Shown here one piece after another: positions 33,121 through 46,541 of a stretch of 64,000 nucleotides of DNA; position 1 is the first letter of the stretch, and each line of letters begins with the position of its first letter. Source of the stretch: an uncultured Synechococcales cyanobacterium (GTDB taxonomy: Bacteria; Cyanobacteriota; Cyanobacteriia; Thermosynechococcales; Thermosynechococcaceae). Both the position numbers and the translations under genes were made by a program. Location: contig CADCWO010000078.1 in the NCBI GenBank assembly GCA_902806435.1, forward strand, positions 340 to 64,339, read 5' to 3'. Under the pieces are notes generated by a model, which was not told the origin of the DNA, did no database searches, and worked only from the letters and a program-made list of their open reading frames with translations.

Positions 33121-34461
33121 GTGAGCAATTCTCAAGGGCCAGGGCAACTGGCAGAACAACTGCTAGAACTAGCCAGGAAATCGGGTGCTCAGGCAGCAGA
33201 GGTATTTCAATCTCGTTCCTTATCGCGGCCGGTATTTTTTGAAGCCAACCGCCTGAAGCAGTTGGAAAGTGTGCAAGCAGAAGGTACTGCCTTGCGGCTA
33301 TGGCGAGACGGTTGTCCCGGTTTAGCTGTTGCTTACGGTCCTGTTGAGCCCCAAGCTTTAGTAGAGCGGGCAATCGCCCTGAGCTACTTAAATCCACCCG
33401 AATGGATTGAACTTGTAAGCGGGTCCGAGACTGTATACCCCGATCTAGGAGAAATGGTTCCTGTCGAGCAACTAGTAGATTGGGGCAAGCAGGCGATCGC
33501 ACTGGTTCGAGATAGGTATCCAGAGCTGCTATGTAGCGCCGAGTGGGACTGCGAGGCGGAAATGACCCGCTTGATTAACTCCCAGGGATTGGACTGTAGC
33601 TATACCGACACTACCCTTAGTTGCTACCTAGCAGCGGAATGGATTCGCGGCGATGACTTTCTCAGTATTGCAGACGGGCAAACCCAGCGCCATAAACTGC
33701 ACCCTACAGCTTTAGCTAACTTGATTTTGCAGCGATTGGAGTGGAGCCAGGAGAATGTGCTACCCCCGGCCAGCCGGGTACCGATTTTGTTCACCTCCAA
33801 AGCTGCTGATATGTTGTGGGGGACGGTTCAGGCCGCTTTGAATGGCAAGCAAGTGCTGGAGCGGGCCAGCCCCTGGAGCGATCGCTTGGGTCAACAAGTC
33901 ACTGCTCCTGCCCTGACCATTTGCCAACAGCCAGATGCGGGACCCTTTAGCTGTCCCTTTGATGATGAAGGCACACCGACACGATCGCTGGTATTTATCC
34001 AAGATGGCATCTTGAAAGCTTTCTATAGCGATCGCACAACGGGAAAGCGGCTAGGTACTGGCACCACCGGAAATGGCTTTCGGCCTGATCTAGGCAGTTA
34101 TCCAGCCCCGGGACTATTCAACCTGTTAATCAAGCCAGGAGGATGGCCTGTTGCTAACGCCTCTGCGGGAGAGGGAGCATCGTTAAGGGAGTTGATCAGC
34201 AGCTTGGATGAGGGATTGGTGGTGGATCAAATGCTGGGTGGAGGTGCTGGTATCTCCGGTGACTTCTCAGTTAACGTTGATTTGGGTTACCGAGTGCAAC
34301 AAGGTCAGATTACAGGCCGGGTTAAAGATACGATGGTTTCCGGCAATGTCTACACTGCGTTGAAACAACTGGTGCAACTGGGGGGCGACGCAGACTGGAA
34401 TGGCTCTTGCTATACTCCTTCACTGATTGTGGAGGGTTTATCGGTCACGGGGCGGCAATAG
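33121..34461 (+). CDS. pmbA: PmbA/TldE-type TldD-family protein
   Basis: This 446-residue protein of the TldD/PmbA (U62) family starts with GTG preceded by GGGGGAG. The family layout is visible: the N-terminal ELARKSGAQAAEVFQSRS, a middle domain, and the C-terminal half with GTPTRSLVFIQDGILKAFYSDRTTGKRLG and VDQMLGGGAGISGDFSVNVDLGYRVQ, typical of PmbA/TldE. TldD carries the HExxH site and forms a heterodimer with TldE. No HExxH is present here, so this is the TldE-like partner, which assists in peptide or antitoxin degradation. tldD is not in the window. Confidence 0.9.
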   Translation: MSNSQGPGQLAEQLLELARKSGAQAAEVFQSRSLSRPVFFEANRLKQLESVQAEGTALRLWRDGCPGLAVAYGPVEPQALVERAIALSYLNPPEWIELVSGSETVYPDLGEMVPVEQLVDWGKQAIALVRDRYPELLCSAEWDCEAEMTRLINSQGLDCSYTDTTLSCYLAAEWIRGDDFLSIADGQTQRHKLHPTALANLILQRLEWSQENVLPPASRVPILFTSKAADMLWGTVQAALNGKQVLERASPWSDRLGQQVTAPALTICQQPDAGPFSCPFDDEGTPTRSLVFIQDGILKAFYSDRTTGKRLGTGTTGNGFRPDLGSYPAPGLFNLLIKPGGWPVANASAGEGASLRELISSLDEGLVVDQMLGGGAGISGDFSVNVDLGYRVQQGQITGRVKDTMVSGNVYTALKQLVQLGGDADWNGSCYTPSLIVEGLSVTGRQ

Positions 34462-34544: not shown

Positions 34545-34560
34545 TAGTACATATGTACTA
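34545..34560. promoter_or_regulatory. LexA-type operator overlapping a -10 box
   Basis: TAGTACATATGTACTA is a perfect 16-bp palindrome. Its core AGTACATATGTACT matches the cyanobacterial LexA box RGTACNNNDGTWCB. The last two bases start a consensus TATAAT at 34559-34564. LexA bound here would cover the -10 region. The site is ~47 bp before the start of the phage-type ATPase gene at 34608. Confidence 0.7.
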
Positions 34561-34607
34561 TAATTAAACTATCTCAACTGTTACCCCTCAAGTCTGGGTG
34601 GAACTGT

Positions 34608-35585
34608 ATGCCCCGTTTCAAAAAAGCTATTTTAGAGCAAGCAAAAGTCCGCATTGCGCTCTGGGGTCCCTCAGGTGCAGGCAAAACTCGTACCGCCCTG
34701 GAAATTGCGACAGGCCTGGGCCAAAAAATTGCGGTCATCGATACCGAGCATGGTCGTTCGCGCCAATACGCCGATCGCTATGAGTTTGACCTGATTGAGC
34801 TAGAAACTTTCCACCCAGACCAGTACATCCAAGCTGTCCAGGCAGCAGAAGATGAAGGTTATGAAGTTTTGATCATTGATAGCCTCACCCACGCTTGGGC
34901 TGGGGATGGGGGGTTGTTAGAGGTTCACGCTGATATTGTGCGGCGAAGCACAATTAAGAATGAATTTAGTGCTTGGAATGAAGTCACTCCCATTCATCGT
35001 CGTTTGGTTGAAGCAATGGTTCGCTCCTCTTTCCATGTCATTGCTACGATGCGCAGCAAGACTGAGTACGCAATGGAGGTGAATGAACAAGGTAAGACGG
35101 TAATTCGAAAGGTCGGGTTAGGACCAGATCAGCGCAAAAACTTGGAGTACGAGTTTGATGTGGTTGGCTACATCGACCCTGACCACGCCTTGACCGTTGA
35201 GAAAGATTCCAGCGATTTGCTGCAAGATCAGGTAATCAAGTTACCGACAGCAGAATTAGGGCATAAGTTAGCAGCTTGGTTTTCCCGAGGGGAACGACCA
35301 GCTTGGAAGTTTTCTCACTTCCACCGGGACATTTTGATCAGGGCAAAAGTTGGCCAACGGTGGGAGCGCTCTGATACAGCAGCTTTATTGGCGCTCTATC
35401 ACTTAAATCGCCTGGAGGACATTCCGAACGAGAGTGTCTACCAACAAATTCGGCAAGCTCTAAGTCTGCCACCTATCGAAGGGTTAGAGCGAGCAGAGAA
35501 ATTAATTCAGGCTACATCCCATAGATCACGCGTGAAAGAGACTGACTCTAGTACTGACAAAACAACAAGCGCCATTGCTTCTTAA
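34608..35585 (+). CDS. Phage-type RecA-fold ATPase (AAA_24 / Sak4-like)
   Basis: This 325-residue protein has a RecA-like nucleotide-binding domain of the AAA_24 type used by phage single-strand-annealing recombinases such as Sak4. Walker A is IALWGPSGAGKTRTALEIA (~17-35), then VIDTEHGRSRQYADRYEFD, the Walker B-like VLIIDSLTHAW (~85-95) and VIATMRSKTEYAM with the sensor-like region. Residues ~225-325 are a polar tail that does not resemble Sak4. No other phage genes are adjacent. A perfect LexA-type palindrome overlaps its promoter, so it is probably induced by DNA damage. Recombinase activity is inferred from the fold and regulation. Confidence 0.75.
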   Translation: MPRFKKAILEQAKVRIALWGPSGAGKTRTALEIATGLGQKIAVIDTEHGRSRQYADRYEFDLIELETFHPDQYIQAVQAAEDEGYEVLIIDSLTHAWAGDGGLLEVHADIVRRSTIKNEFSAWNEVTPIHRRLVEAMVRSSFHVIATMRSKTEYAMEVNEQGKTVIRKVGLGPDQRKNLEYEFDVVGYIDPDHALTVEKDSSDLLQDQVIKLPTAELGHKLAAWFSRGERPAWKFSHFHRDILIRAKVGQRWERSDTAALLALYHLNRLEDIPNESVYQQIRQALSLPPIEGLERAEKLIQATSHRSRVKETDSSTDKTTSAIAS

Positions 35586-36131
35586 GGGGGTAGCTTGCCC
35601 AAGGCTTCCAAACCTTGTTTCATCGGCGGAGCAGGATTACCCGGCAGTCATTGCGCCTTTTGCTCTCTAAGACTTATTTAATAGACCTGCTTTGAAAATC
35701 AACGACTAACTCAATGGTCGGGTAGTAGAATCGGGACAAGTTGGACTTGATAGCCTAACTACTCGCTCTGCTGTTGCAGTTTTTTCAGGAGGGCTAATCT
35801 ATTTAATCTAGTCAAACAAGTTGGCTTAAAGGCAGGTGCCGGGTTTGCTTGTGGGCGAGCTGGACGCAATTAGTCTCAAATAGCTGTTCATTGAAAGCTG
35901 ACGTTAGTTGGGAGAAAGCGTGTTTGGTATATCAAACACGCTTTCTGCTCAAAAAATTGGCGTATCTTAACCCTATGGAGTATAAAGGCAGAGGCAAGAC
36001 TTATTAAACAGCCAAAGGCCTAGGCATTGGTATCAAACCAGATGAGCGTTGCTGGTTTATCTTGACGAATTTCTGGTTCTCGTAAAACCTTGACCACGCT
36101 GGGTACAGCTAATACGAATAAGCACAAGCAG
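35586..36131. other. Non-coding gap before the GGDEF/EAL gene
   Basis: No convincing gene is seen. There is a weak hairpin CAAGG/CCTTG just after the ATPase stop, a CTGC/GCAG hairpin followed by T6 near 35775-35790 that could end a short RNA, and a strong inverted repeat at 35913-35946. The rest has no recognisable signal. The last ~40 bases are an in-frame extension of the GGDEF/EAL gene and possibly non-coding. Confidence 0.5.
35913..35946. repeat. 14-bp perfect inverted repeat (stem-loop)
   Basis: AGAAAGCGTGTTTG 35913-35926 and CAAACACGCTTTCT 35933-35946 form a perfect 14-bp stem around a 6-nt loop (GTATAT). It is not followed by T-tracts on either strand, so it does not look like a terminator. 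It sits ~185 bp upstream of the GGDEF/EAL gene. It could be a leader structure or an operator-like palindrome. Confidence 0.8.
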
Positions 36132-38729
36132 ATGGAGGAAATACTTAAACAGGGGGGGGTACAATTTCGTGCTTTGGTAGAGCGCGCTGCTTCGGCAATT
36201 TTCATCCTACAGGGCAAGAAGTTTTGCTATGCCAATGCGGCGACTGTGGCCATGAGCGGTTACTCGCACGCAGAACTTCTAACAATGAATTGTTGGGATA
36301 TCATCCATCCTGACTTTCAGGCAACCGTGAAAGCCCATTATGAGGAGGTGAAATGTCAGCAAGAATACCCCTGCGACCGACCTGTCTTAGAGGTGAAATT
36401 TGCAACAAAAAGTGGCGAGGAGAGATGGGCTGAAGTTACGAGTACTGTCTTTGACCTTGCAAACGTTCCTGCTATTTTAGGGATAGCTTTTGATATCACG
36501 GCTCGCAAGCAAGCGGAGGCAGCACTTTGTCTGTCAGAGGAAAAGTTTTCTAAAGCTTTTCGGGCTAGCCCAGATGCAATTACGATCAATACTGTTGTTG
36601 ATGGCCGCTATATTGAGGTCAACGACGGTTTTCTACGGGCTACGGGTTACGCTCGTCAAGAAGTGATTGGGCGCACCACTATTGAGCTGGGTAACTGGGT
36701 TAATCCAGCGGATCGCGATTTGATGCACCGGATGTTGCAGCAGGATTTCTGGGTACGGGATCTAGAAGTTGCCTTTCGAATTAAGTCAGGAGAGGTACGG
36801 GTAGGCCTGGTGTCTGCGGAGCTGATTCATCTCGGAGGGGAGCTGTGCCTGTTGGCCGTGGTGCGTGATATCACAGAGCGCAAAAGGGTAGAGGAAGCCC
36901 TACGCGTATCAGAGGAGAAGTTCTCTAAAGCTTTTCGATCGAGTCCTGACTCAATTACCATCAGCACTCTTACTGATGGACGAGTGATTGAAGTCAACGA
37001 TAGTTTTCTGCGGATCACAGGTTATACGCGTGAGGAAGTGACTAACCGGACCGCTGCCGAGCTGAATATTTGGGCCAAGCCGACAGAGCGCATTTTGATG
37101 GAGCAGATGTTGCAGCAACAAGGAGAAGTGCTCAATCTTGAAGCTAGCTTTTGTGTCAAATCAGGTGAGGTGCGTACAGGCCTGGTGTCTGCTGAGGTGA
37201 TTCAGCTGGCTGGTGAACCTTGTTTGTTGATTGTGATCCGCGATATTACTGATCGCAAACAGGCTGACGCCCAACTTTTACGCAGTGCTTTATACGATCA
37301 CCTAACGGGTCTACCCAACCGTGCTTTATTTATGGACCGGCTGCGCTACGCCCTGAATCACGCCCGCCGTGATGACACCTACTTGTTTGCTATCCTCTTC
37401 TTAGACGTGGACCGCTTCAAGGTGGTCAATGACAGCTTAGGGCATATGATGGGTGACCAGCTGCTAATCGCGATCGCCGCTCGCCTCGAAGCGGCGATCC
37501 GGCCTGGAGACACAGTTGCCCGCCTGGGAGGAGATGAGTTTACCATCCTGCTAGACGATATTAAAGTGGCTAGCGATGCGATTGACGTCGCGGAACGCAT
37601 TCACCAGAAACTGCAACAACCGTTTAACCTGAGTGGCCATGAAGTATTCACTAGTGCCAGCATTGGGATTACCTTGAACCAGCTCTACGATCTGCAAAAG
37701 AGCAGGGCACAACCTATAAACCATCACTTCAACCCAGCCAGCCCAAAAGGGGTAGGCTCGGATATTTTGGCATTAAGGCAATACGAGCAGCCGGAGGATT
37801 TGCTGCGGGACGCTGATATTGCCATGTATCGGGCTAAGGCTTTAGGTAAAGCACGTCACGAAGTCTTTGACACTAGTATGCGGGTGCAGGCAGTATCCCT
37901 CTTGCAAATGGAGATGGATCTGCGCCGAGCCATTGAGCGCCAAGAGTTCCGAGTGCATTACCAGCCGATTGTCTTGCTAAAGACAGGCGAAATTACCGGC
38001 TTCGAGGCTCTGGTTCGTTGGCAGCATCCAAAGCGAGGTCTAATTTCCCCGACCGCATTTATTCCCGTAGCCGAAGAAACGGGACTGATTGTTCCAATTG
38101 GCTGGTGGGTCCTGCAGGAAGCTTGCCAACAGATGCGTTCCTGGCAGCTTGCCTATGCCCACCTGCTCCAGGAAAGTACTTCTGCACTGACGATTAGCGT
38201 CAACCTATCCGGCAAGCAGTTCCTGCAACCAGATCTGCTACCACAAATCAACCGAGTCTTGCAGGAGACTGGTTTGGATACCAGCAGCTTAAAACTAGAG
38301 ATCACGGAAAGCGTGATTATTGAACACACGGAATCGATCACAGCAATCTTATTAGAATTGAGAGCGCAGGGAATACAGTTGTACATTGATGACTTTGGTA
38401 CGGGCTACTCATCCCTCAGCCGCCTCCACCAGTTTCCAATCAATCGCTTGAAGATTGACCGCTCTTTTGTCAGCCGCATGCACCCTAACGGCAACCACAA
38501 CTTACAGGGTGATGCCTTGGAGGCAACTCCGATTGTTCGCACCATTATTACACTGGCAGATAATTTGGGTATGAATGTCACTGCCGAGGGAGTTGAAACT
38601 GCCCAACAACTAGCCCAGCTTAAAGCCCTAGGCTGTGAATGCGGTCAGGGGTATTTTTTCTCGCGGCCTATCGAAAGTAATAGGGTAGACGCAATGCTGG
38701 CCGCCTCTAAATACCTGCCCCTAGGCTAA
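36132..38729 (+). CDS. Triple-PAS diguanylate cyclase/phosphodiesterase
   Basis: The 865-residue soluble protein contains three PAS domains (~15-135, ~140-265, ~265-390), the second and third near-duplicates of each other (EEKFSKAFR, EVNDxFLRxTGYxREEV in both). A GGDEF domain with intact RLGGDEFTILLDD (~470) is followed by an EAL domain with GFEALVRWQHP and DDFGTGYSSL. It probably makes and/or degrades cyclic di-GMP in response to PAS-bound signals. GGDEF includes an insert of ~35 residues after SASIGIT. The ATG at 36132 is chosen over a TTG at 36090. No operon partner adjoins. Confidence 0.92.
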   Translation: MEEILKQGGVQFRALVERAASAIFILQGKKFCYANAATVAMSGYSHAELLTMNCWDIIHPDFQATVKAHYEEVKCQQEYPCDRPVLEVKFATKSGEERWAEVTSTVFDLANVPAILGIAFDITARKQAEAALCLSEEKFSKAFRASPDAITINTVVDGRYIEVNDGFLRATGYARQEVIGRTTIELGNWVNPADRDLMHRMLQQDFWVRDLEVAFRIKSGEVRVGLVSAELIHLGGELCLLAVVRDITERKRVEEALRVSEEKFSKAFRSSPDSITISTLTDGRVIEVNDSFLRITGYTREEVTNRTAAELNIWAKPTERILMEQMLQQQGEVLNLEASFCVKSGEVRTGLVSAEVIQLAGEPCLLIVIRDITDRKQADAQLLRSALYDHLTGLPNRALFMDRLRYALNHARRDDTYLFAILFLDVDRFKVVNDSLGHMMGDQLLIAIAARLEAAIRPGDTVARLGGDEFTILLDDIKVASDAIDVAERIHQKLQQPFNLSGHEVFTSASIGITLNQLYDLQKSRAQPINHHFNPASPKGVGSDILALRQYEQPEDLLRDADIAMYRAKALGKARHEVFDTSMRVQAVSLLQMEMDLRRAIERQEFRVHYQPIVLLKTGEITGFEALVRWQHPKRGLISPTAFIPVAEETGLIVPIGWWVLQEACQQMRSWQLAYAHLLQESTSALTISVNLSGKQFLQPDLLPQINRVLQETGLDTSSLKLEITESVIIEHTESITAILLELRAQGIQLYIDDFGTGYSSLSRLHQFPINRLKIDRSFVSRMHPNGNHNLQGDALEATPIVRTIITLADNLGMNVTAEGVETAQQLAQLKALGCECGQGYFFSRPIESNRVDAMLAASKYLPLG

Positions 38730-44720: not shown

Positions 44721-46541
44721 ATGTCCGCTTCCCAGCTTTCCCCTGAGCAGCCTCAGAAAATTTCCTTGCCCCGAACCAGTGAGTCGGAGGCCCTACATAA
44801 GCTCCGTCACTCAACCTCTCATGTCATGGCAATGGCAGTACAGAAATTGTTTCCAAACGCACAGGTCACCATTGGCCCAGCGATTGAAAACGGCTTTTAC
44901 TACGATTTTGATAGCCCACAGCCTTTTACCGAGAAGGACCTGAAGGCGATCAAAAAAGAGATGATCAAAATCATCAATCGCAAACTGCCGCTAATCCGTG
45001 AAGAGGTAAGTCGAGAAGAAGCACAACGCCGGATTGCCCAAAATAATGAACCCTACAAACTAGAAATTCTGCAAGATCTCCAAGAGCCAATCACGATCTA
45101 TCATCTGGGAGACCAATGGTGGGATTTGTGCGCCGGCCCGCACGTGGAAAGTACGGCAGAACTAAATCCGCAGGCGATTGAACTCGAAAGCGTTGCCGGG
45201 GCCTACTGGCGGGGGGATGAAACAAAAGCCCAGCTCCAGCGGATTTACGGTACTGCCTGGGAAACCCCTGAGCAACTAGCAGAATACCAGCGGCGCAAAG
45301 CAGAAGCGCTACGGCGGGACCACCGCAAGTTAGGCAAAGAGCTTGGTTTGTTCATCTTCTCTGAGGAGGTGGGAGCAGGGCTACCATTATGGACCCCGAA
45401 AGGGACGATGCTGCGATCGCAACTGGAAGATTTTTTGAAGCGAGAGCAAATCAAGCGTGGCTACCAGTCAGTGGTTACGCCACATATTGCCCGCGTTGAT
45501 CTATTCAAAACCTCCGGTCACTGGCAAAAGTACCACGAAGATATGTTTCCGCTGATGAGCGAAACCGACGCGGAACGCTTGGGAGAACAGGGTTTTGTCA
45601 TGAAGCCGATGAACTGCCCCTTTCACATCCAGATCTATAAGAGTGAGTTGCGATCTTACCGTAGCCTGCCAATGCGCCTAGCAGAGTTTGGCACAGTCTA
45701 CCGCTATGAGCAATCTGGAGAGTTAGGGGGACTGACACGGGTTCGGGGTTTCACAGTGGATGACTCCCACTTATTTGTCACCCCAGAACAGTTGGATGAT
45801 GAATTCCTCAAGGTTGTTGATTTAATCTTGGATGTGTTCAATAACTTGCAACTGAAGAACTTTAAAGCACGGCTCAGTTTCCGTGACCCTGCCTCCGACA
45901 AGTACATTGGTTCTGATGAAGCCTGGGAAAAGTCAGAGAATGCAATCCGGCGGGCTGTAGAAACCTTAGGGATGGAGCATTTTGAAGGGATTGGGGAAGC
46001 GGCCTTCTATGGTCCCAAGCTCGACTTTATCTTCCAGGATGCGCTGGAACGGGAGTGGCAGTTAGGGACAGTGCAAGTAGACTACAATCTACCGGAACGG
46101 TTTAATCTAGAGTACGTTGCGGAAGATGGCACCCGCAAGCGCCCCGTGATGATCCATCGTGCTCCTTTTGGCTCTGTGGAGCGATTGATTGGCATTTTGA
46201 TTGAAGAGTATGCCGGAGACTTCCCCCTCTGGCTGGCCCCCTTGCAAGCTCGCTTGCTGCCAGTGAGTGATGAGCAATTAGCTTTTGCCCAGCAGGTGAA
46301 TCAACAAATGCTCGCCCAAGGGCTGCGCGTAGAGTTAGATACCAGTGGCGACCGCTTGGGCAAACAAATTCGTAATGCCGAAAAAGAAAAAATACCGGTG
46401 ATGGCGGTGATTGGAGCGAAGGAAGTAGAATCCAACAGCCTCAGCATTCGCACCCGTGCTTCCGGTGAGTTAGGAGCTATCCCTGTTCCAGAAGTGATCG
46501 AAAAAATGGAAGCGGCAATCAAGGAGCACAATTACTTCTAG
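44721..46541 (+). CDS. thrS: Threonyl-tRNA synthetase
   Basis: This 606-residue class II enzyme charges tRNA-Thr. The editing domain begins almost at the start (HSTSHVMAMAVQKLF, with the HxxxH metal motif), so the TGS domain common in other bacteria is missing, as in other cyanobacterial ThrS. The catalytic core (~240-500) has motif 2 VYRYEQSGELGGLTRVRGFT, zinc ligands including Cys in KPMNCPFHI, and motif 3 HRAPFGSVERLIGILIEEY. The anticodon-binding domain follows. ATG at 44721. A 30-residue membrane peptide ORF follows 4 bp after the stop. Confidence 0.97.
   Translation: MSASQLSPEQPQKISLPRTSESEALHKLRHSTSHVMAMAVQKLFPNAQVTIGPAIENGFYYDFDSPQPFTEKDLKAIKKEMIKIINRKLPLIREEVSREEAQRRIAQNNEPYKLEILQDLQEPITIYHLGDQWWDLCAGPHVESTAELNPQAIELESVAGAYWRGDETKAQLQRIYGTAWETPEQLAEYQRRKAEALRRDHRKLGKELGLFIFSEEVGAGLPLWTPKGTMLRSQLEDFLKREQIKRGYQSVVTPHIARVDLFKTSGHWQKYHEDMFPLMSETDAERLGEQGFVMKPMNCPFHIQIYKSELRSYRSLPMRLAEFGTVYRYEQSGELGGLTRVRGFTVDDSHLFVTPEQLDDEFLKVVDLILDVFNNLQLKNFKARLSFRDPASDKYIGSDEAWEKSENAIRRAVETLGMEHFEGIGEAAFYGPKLDFIFQDALEREWQLGTVQVDYNLPERFNLEYVAEDGTRKRPVMIHRAPFGSVERLIGILIEEYAGDFPLWLAPLQARLLPVSDEQLAFAQQVNQQMLAQGLRVELDTSGDRLGKQIRNAEKEKIPVMAVIGAKEVESNSLSIRTRASGELGAIPVPEVIEKMEAAIKEHNYF

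Follow-up and report, generated by a model that had tools for sequence, protein, structure and literature searches.

A solitary phage-type RecA-fold ATPase gene under putative LexA control in a Thermosynechococcaceae cyanobacterium

Introduction

Why does a gene for a phage-type ATPase stand alone in a cyanobacterial genome, directly behind a sequence that looks like a LexA operator? Annealing ATPases of phages are usually investigated as tools of the phage itself. The question is raised by a 64,000-nt stretch of DNA (hereafter the window) from an uncultured Thermosynechococcaceae cyanobacterium. A sequence-only reading had described a perfect 16-bp palindrome fitting the cyanobacterial LexA box RGTACNNNDGTWCB, which overlaps a TATAAT about 47 bp ahead of a stand-alone AAA_24/Sak4-like ATPase gene in the core genome, and had proposed SOS control of a gene recruited into host DNA repair. 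As checks, it had named the operator at lexA and recA, the palindrome upstream of orthologues and the predicted fold of the protein.

Two strands of previous work frame the question. The Sak4 protein of phage HK620 anneals single-stranded DNA (ssDNA) using ATP and is stimulated by its own SSB, and up to 80% of sak4 genes adjoin ssb (PMC5928155); the Pfam family PF13479 (AAA_24) serves as a Sak4 signature (PMC8093625). Not every cyanobacterial LexA, in turn, behaves as a classical SOS repressor triggered by RecA (PMC13416735, PMC4759255). Here, we follow the ATPase, its operator and its only detected orthologue through the window genome, related genomes and viral databases. The features of the locus are compiled in Table 1.

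Table 1. Positions within the window of the ATPase gene, its putative control elements and its neighbours.
Feature	Position	Strand	Basis or remark
TldE/PmbA-type metallopeptidase, upstream neighbour	33121..34461	+	ends 83 bp before operator
Putative LexA operator, perfect 16-bp palindrome TAGTACATATGTACTA	34545..34560	.	motif match, matrix, genome count, orthologue conservation
TATAAT, -10-like element	34559..34564	+	sequence; box plus TATAATTAAA conserved in YX3bin19 alignment
Solitary AAA_24 / PHROG_1366 RecA-fold ATPase, 325 aa	34608..35585	+	Pfam, PHROG, AlphaFold/Foldseek, conserved residues
PAS-GGDEF-EAL protein, downstream neighbour	36090..38729	+	starts 504 bp past ATPase stop

Results

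The ATPase has a predicted RecA-type fold

The open reading frame of the ATPase is intact over its whole length. Its product matches AAA_24 at 3.7e-24 (86.1 bits against a gathering cut-off of 27), PHROG_1366, annotated as unknown function, at 5.3e-88 over residues 3-243, and the Sak4-like PHROG_124 at 6.5e-15. Among 46 homologues, the Walker A motif GPSGAGKT (G23, G25, K26, T27), the Walker B residue D91 as well as E47, R149 and K151 are invariant or nearly so. An AlphaFold model based on 46 sequences reached a mean pLDDT of 88.6, falling to 56-65 around residues 231-270. Foldseek searches with this model returned RAD51 paralogues, RecA, RadA and KaiC with E values of 1e-6 to 1e-4, at query TM-scores of only 0.3-0.4, and AAA-domain phage proteins with E values down to 1.6e-23. 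Walker A, Walker B and the catalytic glutamate are thus present in a protein whose predicted fold is that of the RecA-type ASCE ATPases, and the fold assumed in the sequence-only reading is borne out by structure prediction.

The assignment as Sak4-like needs to be narrowed. The AAA_24 match and the RecA fold stand; the best profile is PHROG_1366, and hhalign against the single HK620 Sak4 sequence gave a probability of 2.4%, HK620 Sak4 itself matching PHROG_124 at 1.9e-5. Because this direct comparison failed, the name Sak4 applies to the protein at the level of the AAA_24 superfamily only. With the Sak4-like annealing ATPases (PF13479; PHROG_124/2872; HK620 HkaL) it shares the minimal RecA-fold ATPase with Walker motifs, and its mobile relatives adjoin ssb just as sak4 genes do. 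It differs from them in belonging to PHROG_1366, in a C-terminal helical region of its own and in being encoded by a solitary chromosomal gene under putative LexA control, flanked by tldE and the PAS-GGDEF-EAL gene instead of the ssb typical of sak4.

The operator belongs to a compact LexA regulon

The palindrome fits RGTACNNNDGTWCB on both strands and is the sole match to its sequence in the window at up to three mismatches, where 0.12 were expected. With a 14-bp scoring matrix trained only on the other LexA-type sites of the window genome it scored 23.96, the matrix maximum, compared with 15.6 for the runner-up within the window and 19.1 for the best site across 80 simulated 64-kb windows. 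TATAAT overlaps the last two bases of the palindrome, and the ATG of the ATPase gene lies 47 bp past its end, so that the coordinates agree with the arrangement first described. A good -35 hexamer was looked for before the ATPase gene, and none was found. The upstream TldE/PmbA-type gene lies on the same strand, so the operator cannot belong to a divergent gene, and this option was rejected. A weaker match to the degenerate box, AGTACATTGGTTCT at 45901-45914, is located within a threonyl-tRNA synthetase-like ORF (44721-46541) and most likely occurs there by chance.

We then scanned the genome (4.79 Mb, 278 contigs) for further operators. The degenerate box gave 83 strand-matches compared with 48 for the reversed control. 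The exact sequence TAGTACATWTGTACTA occurs at four places, each upstream of a gene: the ATPase, gyrA, an ssb and a gene for a 155-aa protein. Sites with one or two changes precede topA, lexA (about 51 bp upstream of the gene) and a second ssb, and were also found at a second place near the 155-aa gene and at a truncated umuC-like ORF. The regulon consensus of the window genome equals the footprinted cyanobacterial consensus AGTACWNWTGTACT as given in PMC3091678, and the ATPase operator fits it perfectly. The lexA product is full-length, with an Ala-Gly cleavage site (AIAAGG), the GDSM serine and the dyad lysine, as far as these residues could be assigned by eye. For recA, no clear box was found in the 316 bp available before the gene. 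The search thus succeeded at lexA and failed at recA; the proposed LexA control stands insofar as the operator is part of a real regulon (lexA, two ssb, gyrA, topA and the 155-aa gene).

Compared with the LexA regulon known from cyanobacteria (Nostoc PCC 7120, box RGTACNNNDGTWCB), the operator fit is perfect and lexA and ssb carry the box here as well, the difference being a phage-type ATPase among the targets. The main text of PMC3091678 makes no mention of phage or recombinases, and by this source such a target appears to be new.

Several of the other sites deserve attention of their own. The gyrA gene is preceded by two overlapping GTAC-type boxes, AGTACATATGTACTAATGTACT, in the window genome (L028:2760-2780) and in the related genome YX3bin19 (L237), and topA has a near-perfect box (L030:2710); by these boxes, the enzymes of supercoiling appear to be among the LexA targets here. 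The 155-aa protein (L026:2594-3100, region C2:23093; further loci L225, L229, L234 and L235), whose gene has a perfect box in the window genome and in YX3bin19, had no match in Pfam, NCBIfam or PHROG. Box-like sites were also found beside its homologues in three more genomes of the family (genus g11), with ftsH-like genes nearby. Judged by these sites, it is a conserved protein without assigned function whose gene is a predicted LexA target. At L032:2108-3348 on the short contig C193, which also bears transposase-like ORFs, a strong box, TAGTACACGTGTACTA, separates a GIY-YIG-like ORF from a truncated ORF for the C-terminal part of UmuC. The umuC gene appears to be disrupted.

Gene and operator are conserved in a second genome

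Orthologues were sought among 97 relatives, in 386 genomes across the phylum and in 29 genomes of the order. Within the order the gene is present in two genomes, including that of the window; the sole orthologue comes from the Thermosynechococcaceae metagenome-assembled genome (MAG) YX3bin19. No other orthologue was found among the 386 phylum-wide genomes, and a contig protein scan returned the YX3bin19 copy only. Its protein pieces are ~84% identical to the window ATPase at the amino acid level. With dN ~0.09 against dS of ~1.4-1.7 or saturated, and third positions just 47% identical, the substitution pattern indicates that the gene is under strong purifying selection.

Despite the near-saturated synonymous sites, the box and TATAAT are kept in YX3bin19 at 24 of 25 bases; the upstream DNA of the two genomes shows almost no alignment except GTAGTACAT(A/T)TGTACTATAATTAAA. 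The palindrome is thus retained upstream of the only orthologue found. YX3bin19 has exactly three perfect boxes, preceding the ATPase gene, gyrA and the 155-aa gene, so that in either genome the operator marks these same targets. A full lexA was not found in this MAG, which is 74% complete.

The ATPase copy in YX3bin19 is frameshifted. As the frameshifts are located at base runs, and tab2, tldE, gyrA and atpD are broken in the same MAG as well, they are probably assembly errors. We also considered that the copy might be a pseudogene, which we think unlikely in a MAG in which many genes carry indels.

The gene is solitary and accessory

In the window, the genes around the ATPase are amt, tab2, tldE, the PAS-GGDEF-EAL gene and carbohydrate genes. 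Neither phage or plasmid genes beside the ATPase nor defence genes in the neighbourhood were found, no convincing target-site repeats flank it, and it closely resembles the surrounding genes in base composition. It is probably monocistronic, and the PAS-GGDEF-EAL gene is an unlikely operon partner. Between these two genes lies a near-perfect, loopless inverted repeat of 34 bp (35913-35946, AGAAAGCGTGTTTGGTA/TATCAAACACGCTTTCT), which could be a terminator or a protein site.

In YX3bin19, the ATPase gene adjoins atpC and a SagB-like gene, while in the window ~18 kb separate it from atpC. A common insertion site was rejected, given these different neighbours (atpC/SagB-like vs tldE/PAS-GGDEF-EAL). 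In YX3bin19, tldE is followed by a transposase-like gene, and in genome G006 directly by an RdgB/ITPase-like gene (read by eye). The description as a stand-alone gene free of phage recombination neighbours, set among chromosomal genes, therefore holds; its placement in the core genome does not, since rarity and differing places together make the gene chromosomal but accessory.

Other relatives are mainly phage and plasmid genes

Relatives of the ATPase are mainly phage and plasmid genes, many of them with an ssb, a DNA polymerase gene or a helicase gene as neighbour. An ssb was present in the flanks of at least 21 of 80 viral homologue loci and close by in plasmid copies from Acaryochloris, Allochromatium and Pseudanabaena. 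A GTAC-type box was found at no more than one of the 80 viral homologues and at none of the cyanobacterial mobile ones, and the exact operator-promoter string is absent from IMG/VR. The PHROG_1366 ATPases, among them p81 of Myxococcus phage Mx8, gp79 of mycobacteriophage Yoshi, that of Alicyclobacillus phage MMB025 and plasmid copies, are 45-50% identical to the window protein over residues 1-230 and have their invariant residues in common with it. They differ in lying within phage or plasmid DNA-metabolism clusters and in lacking a GTAC-type LexA box; a long separate stem leads to the window lineage.

In the tree, the window protein and its YX3bin19 orthologue group with support of 100/100 on a long branch of their own (stem of 1.0 change per site) within the phage proteins, outside the clade of cyanobacterial mobile copies. 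The latter, ~46% identical to the window ATPase, form one well-supported clade lacking the box, which includes two copies from the window genome itself. Most of them have in common a deletion after residue ~98 that is absent from the window protein. The two copies in the window genome are located on short contigs (L060 on C274, L063 on C177) at 45-48% identity, and that on C177 has an internal stop codon. Descent from cyanobacterial plasmid or prophage copies, including these two, is rejected by the tree and the residue ~98 deletion.

Discussion

The comparisons point to an ATPase gene that is real, selected and, judged by its sequence, regulated; what is new is the combination of two known things. 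We consider it reasonably probable that a phage- or plasmid-type ATPase has been domesticated here, being repressed by LexA, released upon damage and acting on ssDNA together with host SSB. The sequence evidence, from operator, regulon membership and conservation to fold, purifying selection and solitary context, speaks strongly for its recruitment to the LexA response; LexA binding, damage induction, partnership with SSB and annealing activity are inferred.

The course of events could have been as follows. A forebear of the present Thermosynechococcaceae lineage would have acquired a RecA-fold ATPase gene of phage or plasmid type, which became solitary and came under the host LexA repressor. 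In the undamaged cell, LexA on the palindrome overlapping the -10 element would block RNA polymerase; once LexA is inactivated, the ATPase would be expressed along with lexA, ssb, gyrA and topA. By analogy to Sak4 (PMC5928155), the ATPase most likely acts on ssDNA with SSB: its substrate would be ssDNA, probably covered with the host SSB that is induced alongside it, and it might spend ATP on strand annealing or on remodelling recombination intermediates, as phage Sak4 does with its cognate SSB. Counting against domestication are the frameshifted copy and the missing full lexA in YX3bin19, the lack of a clear box at recA, the lack of a direct HK620 Sak4 profile match and the presence of the gene in two genomes only, at differing places.

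An alternative is a remnant of a prophage or plasmid, in which a mobile-element promoter would use host LexA for induction and the gene would have no role for the host. The family is overwhelmingly phage- and plasmid-borne, the gene occurs in few genomes and its location is not the same in the two, and LexA-controlled phage genes are common in general. However, no phage or plasmid genes adjoin the ATPase, coding sequence and operator have been conserved over a near-saturated synonymous distance, and the mobile relatives essentially lack the box, which makes a remnant improbable.

We regard it as similarly improbable that the LexA site is genuine and LexA here is a redox, light or salt regulator, the ATPase following metabolic state. 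This is the situation suggested by Synechocystis, whose LexA is reported not to cleave itself and to regulate non-SOS genes (PMC4759255, PMC7567884, PMC13416735), and cyanobacterial LexA may answer to signals besides RecA filaments (PMC13416735). The lack of a clear box at recA of the window genome speaks for it; yet the LexA of this genome retains its cleavage site and catalytic dyad, and the regulon is one of DNA metabolism (ssb twice, gyrA, topA, lexA).

A damage-induced role against phages, in which LexA responds to infection and the ATPase then disturbs the recombination or replication of the phage, seems very improbable. It draws on the description in PMC11846896 of defence systems that target recombinase-like phage proteins, and on one phage homologue annotated as DarB-like antirestriction. 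Against it, no PADLOC defence model was matched (best E 0.018), for which reason we rejected the ATPase as a defence gene, and the neighbourhood lacks defence genes. That the palindrome arose by chance ahead of an unrelated gene is essentially excluded, frequent as the degenerate box is, by the four exact 16-mers all upstream of genes fitting a LexA regulon, a matrix score exceeding every simulation and conservation in the orthologue.

Returning to domestication, the sequence evidence suggests that the cell has adopted a viral recombination protein for its response to DNA damage. More tentatively, and we would not put it above a plausible conjecture, a phage annealing-type ATPase may now serve specifically in the cyanobacterial LexA response: no longer tied to a cognate SSB, it would work with the LexA-induced host SSB and offer an annealing or repair route beside RecA.

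To our knowledge, Thermosynechococcus lacks lexA. The compact set of predicted targets described here (lexA, ssb, gyrA, topA, the conserved 155-aa unknown and the ATPase) supplies a LexA regulon for the family that includes this genus. If domestication is true, this host, in which a lone ATPase is both controlled by the damage repressor and kept by strong purifying selection, would illustrate it clearly, and a role of AAA_24/Sak4-type proteins in chromosomal repair would become directly testable.
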